Notes under the pieces: generated by a model
The model's input: only the letters and a program-made list of their open reading frames with translations
Databases searched by the model: none
What the model was told of the DNA's origin: nothing
Position numbers and translations under genes: made by a program
Shown here: positions 1,806-42,444 of the stretch, in pieces
How positions within the stretch are numbered: position 1 is the first letter of the stretch
Layout: each line of letters starts with the position of its first letter
Source: a virus
Reading direction: 5' to 3' (one strand)
Virus record (IMG/VR): IMGVR_UViG_3300025949_000045
Location: 1-42,444 of that record
Length of the DNA stretch: 42,444 nucleotides

Positions 1806-3980
1806 ATGTTGTGGCGAAGCCTCGAAATACTTATCTTGCCCGTACTGATTTTTGGCCCTTTGATTGTAGGGATTCATTGCCGCCGACGATGGGAGCAAAC
1901 CAAGTTGGACGCACAGCACGTCACTTACGAGGTTATCTTTCCCGGCCCCGATCTAACGCTAGAGATGGCAAGCGACTTCTTCAGCCGGCTCAGTGGCCTT
2001 TATCCACCGATGAAACGGGCTAGCATTCATGGCCGCGAAACAGTACGGTTGGAAGTATTTGCCGATGAAGCGGGTATCCACCACTTGCTTAGTTTCCCGG
2101 AGCGCCTAGAAGACACTATCCTAGACATGATTATGTCGGCCGTCCCGGGACTCGGGATTGAGCCGGCCATGCCGATAACGCGACGCTGGAAGTACGGCGC
2201 AGAGCTTAGGCCCCAAACCCCCTCACCGCTGTTGACCGATCCACGTACTGGCAAACCCACAGTAAAAGATTTAGACCCTCGAGTGATCAGTGGATTGCTG
2301 ACTAGTCTGGGCCGTCTCCAAATGGGCGACGCCGTTATGGTTCAGGTGATATTTACTCCCACTGGCTATGACGGCAACTTCAAGGCCTCGGCCAAACTGG
2401 TGACCACGGCCCCACATGATATCCGTGCTCACAAACTAATCGCTAAAGTCCTGTCTGGCTACGGTCATCTACAGGTTTACAAACTCCGCAATATCCATTG
2501 GCTGGTGTTGGATAAGATTAGCCGTCACGAACCCCCGATAGAGCACTGGCGGCTCACGCTTCCGCCGAACGAGTTAGCCATTTTATGTGGTCTGCCCATT
2601 GGTGGCCCGAGTGTGCCCGGTCTGTCATACGGTAGGGGACAGCGCTTAATGGCCGAAGCCGCGACACCCACCGGCCCCATCGTGGTCGCTACGTCCAACT
2701 TCACTGGCTCTACCCGTGTTATCGGCTTTAGTCAGGCCGATAAGACCAAACACGTTCACGTCATTGGCACCCAAGGTTCAGGTAAATCAGCCTTAATGGA
2801 GAACTTATTTATTCAAGACGTGGAGCAGGGTGGGGGTGGCGCGTTTCTCGACCCACATGGTGACAGCTTCCACAACGTTCTAGATCGTATCCCCCGGGCA
2901 CGGATTAACGATGTCGTGGTGCTCGACCTGTCCCTCAGTGATAACCCGGTGGGCTTTAACGTCCTGGAGGGCGACCCCCACAAGGTCACTAATCAAGTCA
3001 TGGCCGTGTTTGACCGCTTATATGATATCTACAAACTCTCCACCACCCCGGACATTCTGCGCAATGTCACGCTCACCCTGGCCCACAATGGCTTGTCATT
3101 ACTGGATATCCCGGCTGCGCTAGCCCCAGGTGAGGGCGGCAAACGCTTCCGTGATGAGCTAATCAAGAAAGTCCCCGACGAGGCGGTCAAGAACTTCTGG
3201 AACCGCGAGTATAACCTCATGAAGCCGGAGCGCCAGGCCGATGCGATTGCACCCCTGCTTAGGCGGCTCAGACCATTTGAGACCTGGCCCAGCCTGCGGG
3301 GAGCACTCGGCCAAACCAAATCCGGCTTCAACTTTGATGACGTACTGGCCTGCAACAAGATCGTGCTGGTCAACCTGTCGAAAGAAGTGGGGGAGGAAGA
3401 GACCAAACTGTATGCGTCGCTACTACTAGCCAAACTGTGGGAGTCAGCCTTGCGCCGGGCACGCATTCCATTTGAGCAGCGCCGGCCGTTTGGTGTGTAC
3501 GTCGATGAGTTCCACAATTATGTCAACCTGCCCATGAGTTTCGCTACCGTTCTAGACGAGGCGCGCAAGTACGCCGTGAGCTTCACGCTGGCACACCAAC
3601 GCATGGCCCAACTGCCACCTGACTTACGTGACGCCGTGCTCGCCAACGCCCGTAACAAGATGTTCCTAGCTATGGGAGCAAATGATGCCTCTATCCTGGC
3701 CCGCGAGATACCGGCCCTATCGGCGACACTGCTTCAGAACCTCGGGAAGTTCGAGGGTGTATTTCGCCTGATAACTGGAGACGCAACGCTCAGACCGGCA
3801 ACGGGAGTGACGCTCGCACCAGGCAAGTCATGCAACACGGCCCACGCGGTCAGGATCGCCTCACAGGTGCAGTACGGCCGACCCCTAGCAATGGTTGATG
3901 CTGACATCACCCAGCGACAGCGAGTGGTCTGGGAACCTCAGCCCCGGGCCCAGAAAGGACTCCGGGTGGTGGAGGCATGA
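1806..3980 (+). CDS. VirD4/TraG-like type IV coupling ATPase
   Basis: 724 aa. An N-terminal hydrophobic helix (residues ~3-22) anchors it in the membrane. A long linker domain follows, then a RecA-like motor: Walker A GTQGSGKS (residues ~321-328), FLDPHGDS around 346-353, and Walker B-like YVDEFHNY near 563-570, with a late 'TLAHQRMAQL' sensor-like segment. This is the layout of coupling proteins that pump single- or double-stranded DNA through conjugation channels and of related ATPases in integrative elements. In actinobacteria such genes often sit beside a Replic_Relax gene, as here (4075-4752). Presence immediately upstream of a phage terminase is unusual. No relaxase (Mob) or other T4SS channel proteins were found, so it may use a host channel or serve another DNA-transport role. 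Confidence 0.85.
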   Translation: MLWRSLEILILPVLIFGPLIVGIHCRRRWEQTKLDAQHVTYEVIFPGPDLTLEMASDFFSRLSGLYPPMKRASIHGRETVRLEVFADEAGIHHLLSFPERLEDTILDMIMSAVPGLGIEPAMPITRRWKYGAELRPQTPSPLLTDPRTGKPTVKDLDPRVISGLLTSLGRLQMGDAVMVQVIFTPTGYDGNFKASAKLVTTAPHDIRAHKLIAKVLSGYGHLQVYKLRNIHWLVLDKISRHEPPIEHWRLTLPPNELAILCGLPIGGPSVPGLSYGRGQRLMAEAATPTGPIVVATSNFTGSTRVIGFSQADKTKHVHVIGTQGSGKSALMENLFIQDVEQGGGGAFLDPHGDSFHNVLDRIPRARINDVVVLDLSLSDNPVGFNVLEGDPHKVTNQVMAVFDRLYDIYKLSTTPDILRNVTLTLAHNGLSLLDIPAALAPGEGGKRFRDELIKKVPDEAVKNFWNREYNLMKPERQADAIAPLLRRLRPFETWPSLRGALGQTKSGFNFDDVLACNKIVLVNLSKEVGEEETKLYASLLLAKLWESALRRARIPFEQRRPFGVYVDEFHNYVNLPMSFATVLDEARKYAVSFTLAHQRMAQLPPDLRDAVLANARNKMFLAMGANDASILAREIPALSATLLQNLGKFEGVFRLITGDATLRPATGVTLAPGKSCNTAHAVRIASQVQYGRPLAMVDADITQRQRVVWEPQPRAQKGLRVVEA

Positions 3981-4075
3981 CTACCAAGACCAGTACCCCG
4001 ACAGCTACCGAGGTCGGAGGCGACAACCCCCGTATTTACTGGCCGAGACGTGTCTGTAACGGCCGGATTGGTTAG
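3977..4075 (+). CDS. tiny coupled ORF between ATPase and Replic_Relax genes
   Basis: 32 codons from ATG 3977, which overlaps the ATPase stop (ATGA), to TAG at 4073-4075, which overlaps the next start (TAGTG). The peptide begins MTTKTSTPTATEVGGDNP and ends with PRRVCNGRIG. The exact coupling at both ends suggests translation, at least as a bridge that delivers ribosomes to the next gene. No function is known. Confidence 0.5.
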   Translation: MTTKTSTPTATEVGGDNPRIYWPRRVCNGRIG

Positions 4076-4752
4076 TGGTTATGGCTTCCCATTTCCTCTC
4101 ACCTACCGACCACGACATCATTCGCGATGTGGCCAGGCTCAAACAAGTCACAACGTCCCAGCTCGGACGCCTCCACTTCTCCCACACCAGCCCAGCTTCA
4201 GACGGCCGGCAATGCCGAGACGTGCTCCAGCGTCTAGAACGCCTAGGCCATATCAGACCCTTGGAACGCAAGCTCGGGGGCCGACCACCTGGCGGCTTCA
4301 CATGGGTACGGGCTGAGTCAGACATCTATGAGAAGCGTGACCATGCCATTGATATCGCGGAGCTTTATACGCGCGTAGTAGAAGCGGAGCGAGCCGGACA
4401 GCTAACGATTTTGGGTGAGCCCAGCGTGGAGGATTACATTCGGGGAAGTCGAACCAAGTACGACCTCAATTTGTGGATTAGAGGCGCCGATGAGATTGAC
4501 TGGTACGTAGAGGTAGACCGGGGAAGTGAGGAAATGCCAGATGTGCGGGACAAGCTGCGCAAGTATGTTAATGCTTATAAGGCGGCCACAGTCGGGTTTC
4601 CACTGGTTATCTATGTCGTGACGTTTGCTTACCGCAACCGCTATGAACAACGGGTACAGGCCCTACGCCGGGAGATATCCAAACAAGAGGAAGCTAGTTT
4701 ATTCACCGTGTGTACGCTTGATGAGGCGGTTAAGACACTAGCTACAACATAA
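4075..4752 (+). CDS. replication-relaxation (Replic_Relax) family protein
   Basis: 225 aa. An N-terminal winged helix (residues ~8-75: LSPTDHDIIRDVARLKQVTT, then QCRDVLQRLERLGHI and a wing GGRPPGGFTW) is followed by a nuclease-like alpha/beta domain with 'DEIDWYVEVDRGSEEMPDVRDKLRKY' and the strand 'FPLVIYVVTF'. The acidic D/E-x-E pattern followed by a lysine-rich helix is usual for this family, which was linked to plasmid replication and copy control. Pairing with a VirD4-like ATPase matches actinobacterial integrative elements. The start may be GTG 4075 (overlapping the upstream TAG) or ATG 4081. Confidence 0.8.
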   Translation: MVMASHFLSPTDHDIIRDVARLKQVTTSQLGRLHFSHTSPASDGRQCRDVLQRLERLGHIRPLERKLGGRPPGGFTWVRAESDIYEKRDHAIDIAELYTRVVEAERAGQLTILGEPSVEDYIRGSRTKYDLNLWIRGADEIDWYVEVDRGSEEMPDVRDKLRKYVNAYKAATVGFPLVIYVVTFAYRNRYEQRVQALRREISKQEEASLFTVCTLDEAVKTLATT

Positions 4753-10550: not shown

Positions 10551-11399
10551 ATGGCTCTTGGTACTAACCAACAGACCGCTACCACTGGCGCACAGTTTAG
10601 GCCCCAAATTTGGGCGAACGAAGTCATGGAAGCCCTGTATAACACCACCGTTCTTTTGAATCTCGTTCACCGCTACGACTCTGAGGTTTCCTCGCAGGGT
10701 CAAAGCGTAACTGTGCCGTTTATGCCGAATGTGGCCGCTAACGACAAGGTGGCGAACACCCAGGTCACGCTAAACGGTCAGACCGCGACCAGCGTTGTGA
10801 TCAACGTCAACAAGCACAAGGAGTCTTCAGTCGTAATTGAAGACTTCCTGAACGTCCAGTCGAAGTACAATCTTCGCTCTGAGTTCAGCAAGGGCCTCGG
10901 TCAAGCTATCGGTGTCGCCATCGACTCTGATATCTACACTGAGATGCTGGCTGGTATCTCGCAGACCTCAGGCACCTTTGGCACGCCGATTGCTGACGCG
11001 GCCATCTTGGGCGCCAAACTGTTGCTGGACAACGCGATTGCGCCGTTTACGGATCGCTCGATCGTGGTTGACCCGACCGGCAACTCTCAACTGCTTGCCA
11101 TCGACAAGTTCGTGCGTTACGACGCGCTTGGGACTGGTAAAGCGATTGAGGACGGCAAGCTGGGGACGATCTACGGCTTTACCGTTTACATGTCGCAAAA
11201 CCTGCCGACCGTTGCCGGTACGCCGGCGCAACACACTGGCGTTGTCTTCCACAAAGACGTTCAGGGTGTGGCCGTGCAGCAAAAGCCGCGTGTTCAGGCT
11301 CAGTACAAGCAAGAATACTTGGGCTGGCTCGTCACGGTTGACGCCATCTATGGCGTGAAGACCTTGCGCGCTACCTTTGGCGTCCTGCTGAAGTACTAA
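10551..11399 (+). CDS. major capsid protein
   Basis: 282 aa, probably HK97-fold. The N-terminal 'FRPQIWANEVMEALYNTTVLLNLV' helix, the beta segment 'GQSVTVPFMPNV', 'SVVIEDFLNVQSKYNLR' and the C-terminal 'VQGVAVQQKPRVQAQYKQEYLGW' are typical of coat proteins of short-tailed phages. Codon use looks even and favourable, as expected for the most abundant protein. A terminator follows at once (11421-11441). Confidence 0.93.
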   Translation: MALGTNQQTATTGAQFRPQIWANEVMEALYNTTVLLNLVHRYDSEVSSQGQSVTVPFMPNVAANDKVANTQVTLNGQTATSVVINVNKHKESSVVIEDFLNVQSKYNLRSEFSKGLGQAIGVAIDSDIYTEMLAGISQTSGTFGTPIADAAILGAKLLLDNAIAPFTDRSIVVDPTGNSQLLAIDKFVRYDALGTGKAIEDGKLGTIYGFTVYMSQNLPTVAGTPAQHTGVVFHKDVQGVAVQQKPRVQAQYKQEYLGWLVTVDAIYGVKTLRATFGVLLKY

Positions 11400-35865: not shown

Positions 35866-36309
35866 TTAGGTTGATCCTTTAATTCCATTGCACACCAGAT
35901 GTACGGGCTGAATATTGGAATCGGTATAACGCAAATCAGGCCGCCTAGACCGAGGCAGAATGTGGTCTAGGGTAACTTCGGTGACGTGAACAAACTGCCC
36001 GCAAATGCCGCAGCTATAGTTCCCTTTCCAGTCTGGCGGGTGTCGGTTAAGCCAGCCGGCTCGGTAAGCTGTCCATGTCTGAGCAACTTTCCCCTGCTGC
36101 TTTAGCCGGGATTTACGCAGCGTCTTACCTGACCCACTTTTACCCACTATCGGGGTTTTGCGAGTGAGAGGTTTGCTTTCCTTAATCTTCTTGGTTGGTT
36201 TGGGTATCACAATAAATCGCCCAGGTTTAATGCCCTCCGGGACGGCTCCCGTGTCCAAAATCCTTTGGACGCCTCTTGTTAGCCCCACTCGGGTTGCACG
36301 GTACTCATG
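35866..36309 (-). CDS. HNH endonuclease
   Basis: 147 aa from ATG 36309 (156 aa from 36336). The C-terminal ~50 residues hold the HNH fold: CGICGQ, 'VTLDHILPRSRRPDLRYTDS' with the metal/general-base His, then 'NIQPVHLVCNGIKGS'. The basic middle (residues ~50-85) may bind DNA. The start region lies in a perfect hairpin (36304-36339). Phage HNH proteins may nick DNA during packaging or home; its place next to a structured RNA also allows a mobile-element origin. Confidence 0.85.
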   Translation of the reverse strand, partial: HEYRATRVGLTRGVQRILDTGAVPEGIKPGRFIVIPKPTKKIKESKPLTRKTPIVGKSGSGKTLRKSRLKQQGKVAQTWTAYRAGWLNRHPPDWKGNYSCGICGQFVHVTEVTLDHILPRSRRPDLRYTDSNIQPVHLVCNGIKGST

Positions 36310-36339
36310 CATAGGTTTATCAAAAAATCTATGCATGAG
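36304..36339 (-). promoter_or_regulatory. hairpin over HNH start codons
   Basis: Perfect 11-bp arms CTCATGCATAG and CTATGCATGAG, 14-nt loop. Both possible ATG codons of the HNH gene lie in the arms, so folded RNA would hide the start. Confidence 0.6.
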
Positions 36340-36344
36340 CGGGG

Positions 36345-36836
36345 GACGCCTCTGGTCTCGGCGAGTGCTATACCGTTATGCGCTTGTGTTCGTAGGCTGG
36401 TAGTAAGAGGCGAAGATTTGCCGAGACGTTTCCCTACAGTTGTCGGCCGAAGCCACGTTTCCGGTACTTTGCAACTCGTATAGTCACTTCGCATGGGTTC
36501 TGGTTACGGGGCGAGCTATACGCCCCTCTATGCACAGACTTTAAGGGCTCTGGCCAGACCACAATTGGCGACCCCTCGCGGTAGCTACCCAACAGGTGCG
36601 CTAGCGTTTACCTATTCCGCCACTCTTACTATCAACCTATGAATGTACGCTGTCGCGGACGGTGCCGGTACGGATTGCTTCACCCCTGGTGATAGCAGGT
36701 TATTCCCAGAAGAGACCTGCCAATCTCCCCTATTGGAAGCCGGTAGCGGCCGGCCGGGGTATCTCTACCCCCATCAGAGGTGAATCTCAGACCGTAAAGT
36801 ACTGGACCGTGAGAATAGTGCTGCCAGTCGTCGGAG
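36345..36836 (-). ncRNA. candidate large structured phage ncRNA
   Basis: About 490 nt without a credible gene. Read on the minus strand it contains GGGGTA-GAGA-TACCCC (36756-36771, GNRA loop), GGC-UUCG-GCC (36445-36454), GGGGCG/CGCCCC (36508-36526) and GCAGGT/ACCTGC (36695-36720). It also has long-range helices TAGTAAGAG/CTCTTACTA (36623-36631 with 36401-36409) and GTCTCGGC/GCCGAGAC (36420-36427 with 36355-36362), which cross as a pseudoknot. Both tetraloops are canonical only on this strand. A tRNA-Leu-like D-arm (GGCGGAATAGGTAAACGC) and CCA after CTCTTACTA are present, but no T-arm. Size, phage setting and tRNA-like parts recall ornate RNAs such as GOLLD or ROOL; I cannot assign a class. 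Ends are approximate. Confidence 0.6.
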
Positions 36837-36862
36837 AAAAAAGAAAAACCCCCGGAGGGGTT
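36837..36862 (-). terminator. minus-strand terminator
   Basis: AACCCC-TCCG-GGGGTT followed by TTTCTTTTTT on the minus strand. It separates the origin from the ncRNA. Confidence 0.8.
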
Positions 36863-36864
36863 AA

Positions 36865-37085
36865 TCGATCAAGTATCGCTAAGAAAAGCTTAACACACCT
36901 GACTTTCTCGGTCAACAACCCTCAACTATTCTGTTGGATTAGTGATCGAGTTGCGATACTTAATCACTGTATGGATAGTACCTTATCCAAAGCTAAAGCG
37001 TCAACTAATCCCCAGCTTTGGCGGTTTATACACAGTTTTCTGTGGATAACTCATGTTACTATGTGCGTAGACGATGCCAGTCGTC
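36865..37085. other. putative replication origin with DnaA boxes
   Basis: Two facing DnaA boxes, TTATACACA (37026-37034) and TGTGGATAA (37041-37049, reverse of TTATCCACA), 6 bp apart, plus a near-box TTATCCAAA (36983). Inverted repeats: GATCAAGTATCGC (36867) / GCGATACTTAATC (36953), TGGATA / TATCCA (36972-36988), CCAAAGCT (36987) / AGCTTTGG (37014). The 11-mer TGCCAGTCGTC flanks the region directly at 36822 and 37075. No initiator gene is adjacent. Confidence 0.65.
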
Positions 37086-37179
37086 AATAACCAGGCCCAG
37101 GTTCAAGTGTAGGCGTAGCTTCAGAGAGCTACTCGGATTGTGGGGGACATGCCCGCAGCCAGCTTGTAAGAGGAATAAG
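37086..37179. other. non-coding stretch beside origin
   Basis: GC-rich, with small hairpin GTAGCT-TCAGAG-AGCTAC near 37113-37130. No gene or clear promoter seen; may belong to the origin. Confidence 0.4.
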
Positions 37180-37223
37180 AATTAAATAACTCCCCTGCGT
37201 ATGACAGTGGGAGTTATTTAATT
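37180..37223. terminator. bidirectional terminator-like hairpin
   Basis: Perfect 15-bp arms AATTAAATAACTCCC and GGGAGTTATTTAATT, 14-nt loop. It overlaps the stop of the 47-aa gene and shields the origin from minus-strand transcription. Confidence 0.7.
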
Positions 37224-41163: not shown

Positions 41164-41424
41164 GTGATAGAGCGTTCCACTGGAGGCATGGATTGGGTTC
41201 AGGCGCAGCTTAGGGCCGCTCCCCCGTTATCGGAGCGCCAGTGGGCTAAAGTCTGCCAAATACTTCTATCCGTGAAGCGTCAAAGCGCCGACCCTGCTTC
41301 CGTGTTGCCGGGTGAATCGTCACCGGAGGCAACACCGCCGCAATCACATCCCGCCACTGTTCCATCGCCAGCGTTGGCCACGCCGACGTTATGTCAACCG
41401 GCAACGCGCGAACCTGCCGCCTGA
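41164..41424 (+). CDS. small actinobacterial-plasmid-type protein overlapping integrase 3' end
   Basis: 86 aa from GTG 41164. 'MDWVQAQLRAAPPLSERQWA KVCQILLS' resembles short proteins (W-x-x-E-Q-x-A-x-A-P-P-L-x-x-x-Q) common beside integrases and in actinobacterial elements. Residues after ~35 are Pro/Ser-rich and antisense to the integrase 3' end (179-bp overlap), so the real gene may be cut short. It could be a remnant or a regulator; RDF function is only a guess. Confidence 0.5.
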   Translation: MIERSTGGMDWVQAQLRAAPPLSERQWAKVCQILLSVKRQSADPASVLPGESSPEATPPQSHPATVPSPALATPTLCQPATREPAA

Positions 41425-42444
41425 CGTAGGACGATTGTTCTGACCGCAACTCAGCCGCCCGGCGCTCTAACTCTTCAACCGCCGCAAACACGACCGACCC
41501 GGACAGACGCCGCGAGGTGTAGGCCGCCATCAGCTCGGCAATCTGGGTCGTGACCGCTTCTAGTTCGGTGTCGTCCCACGTCTCAGGCTTAGCCTCCACT
41601 TGCCGGTTAGCCAGATAACCCAGGACCAATTTTGTGACCAGGGCGTCCGTCTTAGGCCCGGCAATCGCCACGCCTCCACAGCCCCGGCACTGGTAGTAAT
41701 AGGTTTTCCACTTGGCGTCGGCGTTGCCTCGCATGAACGCTCCACACAATGCACAACGGGCGATACCGCTAAGTAGGTATTTCCGCCCCCCGTAGTGAAC
41801 GTGTGGCCCCGACCTGGCTGGGTCGAGAATGACAGCCCTGACCGCTTCCCACAACTGCACGTCCAAGATCGGCTGGTGCTGACCTATAACTGGTTGGCCG
41901 GACTCATCGGTGGCGATCTCGCGCCGGTAGACCCGGAACCCCGCCAAGCGAGGCGACAGCATGACGTTGCGCAAGACGGGTTTCAGCCACAGGTTGCCCC
42001 TGGGTGTGGTTATCCCCTGTAGGTTCCACTCTCGGCAGATCGTATGAAGTCCTTTACCGGCGATGATGTCCGTGGCTGCCTGGCGGATCAGGGTGGCCTC
42101 ATCGGGTTCAAGAGCGCGTTTGTCGGCCGACCAGCCAAAGGGTCTGGAACCGCCAACTGGTATGCCCGCTTGCGCGTTCGCAAGATGTGCCCTGGCGACC
42201 CGGCGGGAAGTGTCGGCGCTGCTTTTGTTAGCCACGTTGATCAAGATGCGGGCCATGAACCGACCGTCTGCTGTGCCTAAGTTGATATCTCCCTGGCAGG
42301 TGGCAAACACTAGTTTGGGGTTGGCCTCGTACAGGTCGATCAGGCGTTCCAGGTCACGCGGTTGCCGGGCCAGCCGGTCACAGTCATAGACGCACAAGCC
42401 CTCGATGGTGCCGTCTGCGAGGTCGCTGAGTAGTTGGTCGAACT
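41246..42444 (-). CDS. int: large serine integrase, main part (5' end at 24-342)
   Basis: The frame is open from the contig end to TAA/TAG at 41246. It carries the rest of the catalytic domain (FMARILINVANKSSADTSRR), the recombinase domain (GIPVGGSRPFGWSADKRALE; TTPRGNLWLKPVLRNVMLSP), the zinc ribbon 'CALCGAFMRG' with 'YYQCRGCGG', and a C-terminal coiled coil (TQIAELMAAYTSRRLSGSVV) then 'PVTIHPATRKQGRRF'. This is the full large serine integrase architecture (463 aa). Terminated at 41032-41063. Confidence 0.94.
   Translation of the reverse strand, partial: FDQLLSDLADGTIEGLCVYDCDRLARQPRDLERLIDLYEANPKLVFATCQGDINLGTADGRFMARILINVANKSSADTSRRVARAHLANAQAGIPVGGSRPFGWSADKRALEPDEATLIRQAATDIIAGKGLHTICREWNLQGITTPRGNLWLKPVLRNVMLSPRLAGFRVYRREIATDESGQPVIGQHQPILDVQLWEAVRAVILDPARSGPHVHYGGRKYLLSGIARCALCGAFMRGNADAKWKTYYYQCRGCGGVAIAGPKTDALVTKLVLGYLANRQVEAKPETWDDTELEAVTTQIAELMAAYTSRRLSGSVVFAAVEELERRAAELRSEQSSYVRRQVRALPVDITSAWPTLAMEQWRDVIAAVLPPVTIHPATRKQGRRFDASRIEVFGRL
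42319..42444. repeat. terminal direct repeat (right copy)
   Basis: Identical to 24-149; contig overlap that closes the circle. Confidence 0.85.

Follow-up and report, generated by a model that had tools for sequence, protein, structure and literature searches.

The minus strand at 36389-36643 of the window, i.e., the 42,444 nt of viral record IMGVR_UViG_3300025949_000045, almost certainly codes for an RNA of a family that is widespread in phages. Judging from sequence comparisons, this family keeps the acceptor/T-arm stack of tRNA-Leu together with its D-arm and its D-loop and T-loop motifs, whereas the anticodon arm is replaced by a variable domain. The family appears to split into two subclasses, and the one to which the window RNA belongs (type II) has in addition an insert within the T-loop and a basal helix that runs past the acceptor. 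An initial annotation had flagged 36345-36836 on the minus strand as a structured non-coding RNA of about 490 nt, either of a new class or a divergent GOLLD or ROOL; its observations were partly confirmed and its interpretation is partly supported. The region is non-coding as claimed, with no coding character in any frame across 36340-37210, and the main idea, that the phage carries a structured RNA outside the classes in the libraries searched, holds; no known family matches. The actual unit is smaller (ca. 255 nt), and neither the GOLLD nor the ROOL covariance model matches it.

A tRNA-like family with two types in phages

Whole-region blastn gave no match, and only permissive blastn of a sub-stretch exposed the family: positions 36440-36650 (minus strand) returned a 31-nt match (90% identity, E 0.06) to Enterococcus Schiekvirus genomes, where it immediately follows the tmRNA in DNA without annotation. 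The Schiekvirus element consists of a 7-bp acceptor, U8 G9, the D-arm of a tRNA-Leu, a variable middle part and the T-arm GUAAGG-UGCAAAU-CCUUAC. A scan with the D-arm motif exposed further members in which an insert, GUGACUAUACGAGU...CUCG[G/U], followed by CAAAU, interrupts the T-loop. By such motifs the family is present in hundreds of phage sequences. For the window phage itself, the collections searched contain no close sequenced relative; single-protein searches with ERF and ParB returned no close relatives, the terminase search recovered relatives at about 52% identity or less only, and in the records of these terminase relatives the RNA was not found by DNA similarity.

Type I, with the uninterrupted loop UGCAAAU, comprises 201 distinct cores; it occurs in SPP1 and phi3T as well as in phages of Enterococcus, Lactobacillus, Listeria, Leuconostoc, Lacticaseibacillus, Brochothrix and Latilactobacillus. 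The type I T-arm pattern was met in at least 120 stretches of viral contigs and at least 119 stretches of bacterial genomes, mainly Bacillota by record title. For type II, the insert motif was found in 114 stretches of viral contigs (IMG/VR contigs are often fragments), from which 79 distinct complete members were extracted, that of the window included. A sample of about 800 bacterial genomes from two phyla gave no occurrence of the type II motif, and this type looks confined to phages, the bacterial sample being thin. The 69.7-kb viral record IMGVR_UViG_2877079323 carries three type II copies. No feature is annotated at the family matches in the GenBank phage records examined, i.e., a conserved tRNA mimic in many phages, including SPP1 and phi3T, has apparently been overlooked, and phage annotators now have a clear motif to use.

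Core alignments were concatenated around the fixed motifs, and positions fixed by the scan patterns carry no covariation evidence. In the type II alignment (17 members, 20 pairs) 99.7% of cells are paired vs 84.1% after shuffling, 13 of the 20 pairs show two-sided changes, and the covariation score is 0.475 vs 0.139; when the partner is slid by 1-3 columns, pairing drops to 35-55%. The type I alignment (50 members, 16 pairs) reaches 98.0% vs 73.2% shuffled, with a covariation score of 0.696 vs 0.187. Covariation, named by the initial annotation as a check on its reading, is thus strong in both types. Pairing is also evident in sets that were not selected for complementarity: the 201 type I cores form 6.77 of 7 acceptor pairs vs 3.74 with shuffled partners, and the acceptor and T-stem positions of the 79 type II members are 95-100% paired across 69 distinct acceptor sequences. 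The stem of the insert occurs in compensatory forms (CGAG/CUCG, CGAA/UUCG and CAGG/CCUG), with two-sided changes at three of its four pairs among 17 members. In both types the variable domain is closed more often than in shuffles by a helix immediately 5' of the AU that precedes the T-stem (57-59% vs 22-30%); for type II, helices of at least 6 bp are found at this place in 57% of members vs 22% in shuffles.

What lies outside the acceptor is, as far as the alignments can tell, the clearest functional difference between the types. Outward extension of the helix is near background in type I, whereas in type II the paired fraction is 0.85 falling to 0.59 over 14 positions, vs about 0.40 in shuffles. 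Since the type II acceptor helix continues outward for ca. 14 bp, these RNAs probably have no free acceptor or CCA end; they might also be processed so that the acceptor end becomes free. CCA is encoded in three of the 201 type I cores. Position 73 is fixed in neither type, being A in 116 of 201 type I cores and A, C, T and G in 31, 21, 17 and 10 type II members, respectively.

The window RNA as a full type II member

On the basis of its motifs and pairing, the window RNA is a full type II member (Table 1), with exact insert ends in register with the D-arm, T-stem and acceptor. All six T-stem pairs and all seven acceptor pairs form, as do 12 of 14 pairs of the outward extension. Its D-arm matches the family motif UGGCGGAAUAGGUARACGC with 0 mismatches and is identical to, or within 2-3 changes of, that of hundreds of family members; it is also the sole match in the window at up to three mismatches, where 0.01 would be expected. 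The insert end CUCGKCAAAU is present as CUCGGCAAAU at 36416-36425. At the 3' end of the variable domain, a constrained fold gives a probable helix of GUGGUCUGG with CCAGAACCC. Enforcing the family fold on the window RNA yields -85.3 vs a free minimum of -90.7, a cost of 5.4 kcal/mol.

Table 1 Features of the type II RNA in the window and the adjacent downstream gene
Feature	Position	Strand	Details
Whole type II tRNA-like RNA unit	36389-36643	-	255 nt, long basal helix at bounds; from family search, alignment and inverted repeat
Basal helix, 5' strand	36623-36643	-	21 bp; pairs with 36389-36409
Acceptor equivalent, 5' strand	36623-36629	-	GUAAGAG, 7 bp; paired 95-100% in 79 type II members
U8 G9 and D-arm	36604-36622	-	UGGCGGAAUAGGUAAACGC; stem GCG/CGC, loop with the GG of tRNA D-loops
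Variable domain replacing anticodon arm	36495-36603	-	Constrained fold
AU preceding T-stem	36493-36494	-	
T-stem, 5' strand	36487-36492	-	GCGAAG; 6-bp T-stem paired 97-100% per position in 79 members; covariation
T-loop insert, conserved start	36474-36487	-	GUGACUAUACGAGU; exact motif, single match in window
Insert stem-loop	36422-36478	-	Closed by CGAG (36475-36478) and CUCG (36422-36425); interior sequence variable
T-loop 3' half and T-stem 3' strand	36410-36421	-	GCAAAU (36416-36421), CUUCGC (36410-36415)
Basal helix, 3' strand	36389-36409	-	CUCUUAC is the acceptor equivalent; UACCAGCCUACGAA continues the helix
HNH endonuclease gene, downstream of RNA	35866-36336	-	PF01844, E 1.5e-8; same strand

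Several elements of the earlier reading reappear in this fold in another role. The mimicry of a tRNA-Leu D-arm was correctly seen, and the GNRA- and UUCG-capped hairpins, GGGGUA-GAGA-UACCCC and C(UUCG)G, are both readable in the sequence. The supposed CCA-ending acceptor is located inside the 21-bp helix and is not a free end, and the T-arm that had been thought missing is present, as the T-stem GCGAAG/CUUCGC with a loop interrupted by the insert. Two long-range perfect helices had been described as crossing in a pseudoknot. The 9-bp one (36623-36631/36401-36409) can be read; it is no separate element, and forms part of the conserved 21-bp imperfect helix. The complement of the 8-bp one (36420-36427/36355-36362) is likewise readable, and a conserved pseudoknot was rejected, its partner being missing downstream in 77 of the 78 members tested.

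On its own, most of the structural evidence in the initial annotation is at chance level. Dinucleotide shuffles of the flagged stretch are expected to give 1.57 perfect helices of at least 8 bp and 0.37 of at least 9 bp, where two and one were found, respectively. The minus-strand fold has a z-score of -0.8 to -1.1, and 497-nt windows elsewhere in the genome have a mean of -0.9 (sd 1.4). The inverted repeat 36389-36409/36623-36643 (21 nt, 86% complementarity), which contains the 9-bp helix, needed comparative support because 6% of shuffles also reach at least 19 of 21 pairs in such a repeat. The plus strand of the region folds better than the minus strand (z about -3); a plus-strand RNA was nevertheless rejected, the conserved motifs being on the minus strand only. 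Upstream of the unit, no conserved motif was found at 36644-36836.

Known RNAs, possible function and rival explanations

None of the 4227 families of Rfam 15 matched the region at gathering scores, and no relevant match was seen at E ≤ 10. The models that the initial annotation had singled out, i.e., those of GOLLD, ROOL, tmRNA and group I introns, are all without a match: GOLLD (RF02032) at E ≤ 10, ROOL (RF03087) at E ≤ 10 in both the all-family search and a single-family search (the latter run without a positive control), tmRNA (RF00023) in the window, and group I introns in that no Rfam group I model is among the matches at E ≤ 10. ARAGORN found no tRNA or tmRNA in the region and called none in the family members checked, and neither ARAGORN nor the Rfam tRNA model (RF00005) recovered a cloverleaf with an anticodon arm. 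In the open literature, subscription journals being outside the scope, no description of the motif sequences or of a phage tRNA-like RNA family was found. In the sources searched, the family thus seems not to have been described, and whatever its function it adds a tRNA T-loop insert that these sources lack. Mimicry of tRNA itself is a known kind of RNA strategy.

The closest likeness is to tRNA-Leu, with which the phage RNA shares the 7-bp acceptor equivalent, U8 G9, a Leu-type D-arm with GG, and equivalents of C56 and A58 in the T-loop. Unlike tRNA-Leu, it has no ordinary anticodon arm, its T-stem is of 6 bp rather than 5 bp, and its T-loop either has UG instead of U-psi at positions 54-55, as in type I, or is interrupted, as in type II. 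In tmRNA, too, tRNA-like ends are kept and the anticodon arm is replaced, and in Enterococcus Schiekvirus the tmRNA and a type I member are 3 nt apart, but the phage RNA differs in its true D-arm and in lacking an apparent tag reading frame. YrlA is similar in being a non-coding RNA with a tRNA-like domain on a stem and a proposed role as decoy or scaffold; the phage RNA differs in its conserved sequences and in being phage-borne. GOLLD and ROOL are non-coding phage RNAs of unknown function that are often near tRNA genes (PMC12286853), but at 600-800 nt they are longer than the phage RNA of about 255 nt, and their fold differs.

We tentatively propose, at somewhat less than an even chance, that the RNA may act in trans during infection as a tRNA-elbow decoy or scaffold. 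It would present a tRNA-like elbow on a long helix, would be unable to decode and, in type II, would probably not be aminoacylated; it could then occupy elbow-recognising proteins, e.g., host-defence tRNA nucleases, enzymes that modify or process tRNA, or a protein of the phage. A tRNA-like elbow with no decoding and, in type II, probably no charging makes a trans-acting mimic the best explanation, and the lack of a conserved neighbour gene fits action in trans. Taken as a whole, a widespread tRNA-like phage RNA acting as a trans-acting elbow mimic comes close to an even chance of being correct. It is rather doubtful that this undescribed and widespread class, with a phage-only insert subclass, specifically serves, as a mimic of the tRNA elbow, to decoy host defences that target tRNA, or that it diverts host tRNA enzymes during infection. 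If the RNA does bind tRNA enzymes or block tRNA-cutting defence, it would be an RNA-based tool of counter-defence or host takeover, for which test systems are easily made.

The strongest rival, which we consider unlikely, is that the elements are cis-acting processing punctuation at which polycistronic phage mRNA would be cut, by RNase P or RNase Z in type I or by RNase III on the long helix in type II. Members do lie between co-oriented genes (e.g., genes 9 and 11 in SPP1), an Rfam rliG match stops 4 nt before the Listeria type I member, and type II has its long basal helix; the excess of downstream neighbours on the same strand (64 to 10) would also fit such an element, though phage genes are generally co-oriented. 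However, RNase P or Z would find no tRNA-like end in type II, the neighbours vary, and the conserved T-loop insert and D-loop would be left unexplained by a processing signal alone. A Y-RNA-like scaffold, i.e., a tRNA mimic of the YrlA type whose stem would link a nuclease to a ring or adaptor protein, has the same general architecture of tRNA-like domain plus stem as published for YrlA (PMC7790460), but it is improbable given that RF02553 has no match in the window and that a Ro60/TROVE gene was found in none of the 16 type II records searched, several of which are fragments.

Less probable still is an RNA derived from tRNA-Leu that would be charged with leucine and serve off the ribosome or in a tmRNA-like way; this would be most plausible for type I, in view of the Leu-type D-arm and the frequent A73, whereas in type II position 73 is mixed and an extended helix takes the place of a free 3' end. 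Were type II a precursor with a small T-loop intron, excision between UG and CAAAU would leave precisely the type I loop UGCAAAU, and the ends of the insert are indeed conserved; yet we judge this very improbable, as the window insert, of about 64 nt, is much smaller than a group I intron, known splicing signals are absent and splicing would leave the extended basal helix in place. A decayed tRNA-Leu gene or a chance structure would agree with the near-chance fold energy of the region alone but is hardly credible, being contradicted by covariation across unrelated phages and by a conserved insert that no tRNA has.

Neighbouring genes and other tRNA-like elements

No conserved neighbour gene was found, and the genes flanking other members vary. 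The HNH endonuclease was considered as a conserved partner, which was not supported: HNH genes adjoin some members, yet a crude motif test gave no excess, with 2 of 66 vs a background of 2.3%. A strong hairpin at 36304-36339 (15-nt arms, 6-nt loop) overlaps the annotated HNH start and could hide the start codon. On the minus strand at 36836-36967 lies a candidate for a separate small RNA, with a promoter-like TTGACG-18-TACTAT at 37004-36975, a closing 13-nt inverted repeat (36953-36965/36867-36879, 92% complementary) and a terminator-like hairpin (36862-36847) followed by a T-run. Two DnaA-box-like sites, TTATACACA and TTATCCACA, stand face to face in non-coding DNA at 37026-37049; 25 of 100 shuffles give two such sites in the window. 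A TraG/VirD4-like ATPase and a weak replication-initiator match occur beside terminase and major head protein genes, together with a serine recombinase (1806-3980, 4075-4752, 10551-11399 and 41246-42397), and this set of genes suggests a temperate or plasmid-like phage.

Odd tRNA-like elements of other kinds were also seen. They flank the type I RNA of Lacticaseibacillus phage R29.1 (1136-1191 and 1742-1821 of the excerpt) and occur downstream of the type I element in SPP1, with ordinary GGTTC-type T-arms, truncated D- or anticodon arms, and weak tmRNA and mascRNA model matches only. In Flavobacterium phage FL-1 (about 794-980 of the excerpt), an element combines tRNA-Leu-like ends and an ordinary GGTTCGA T-arm with a long insert; it may be a tRNA with an intron or belong to another tRNA-like class. 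In the excerpt of Listeria phage vB_LmoS_188, the rliG match and the type I element lie at 1251-1398 and 1403-1533, and rliG may be a leader that is cut off upstream of the type I element.
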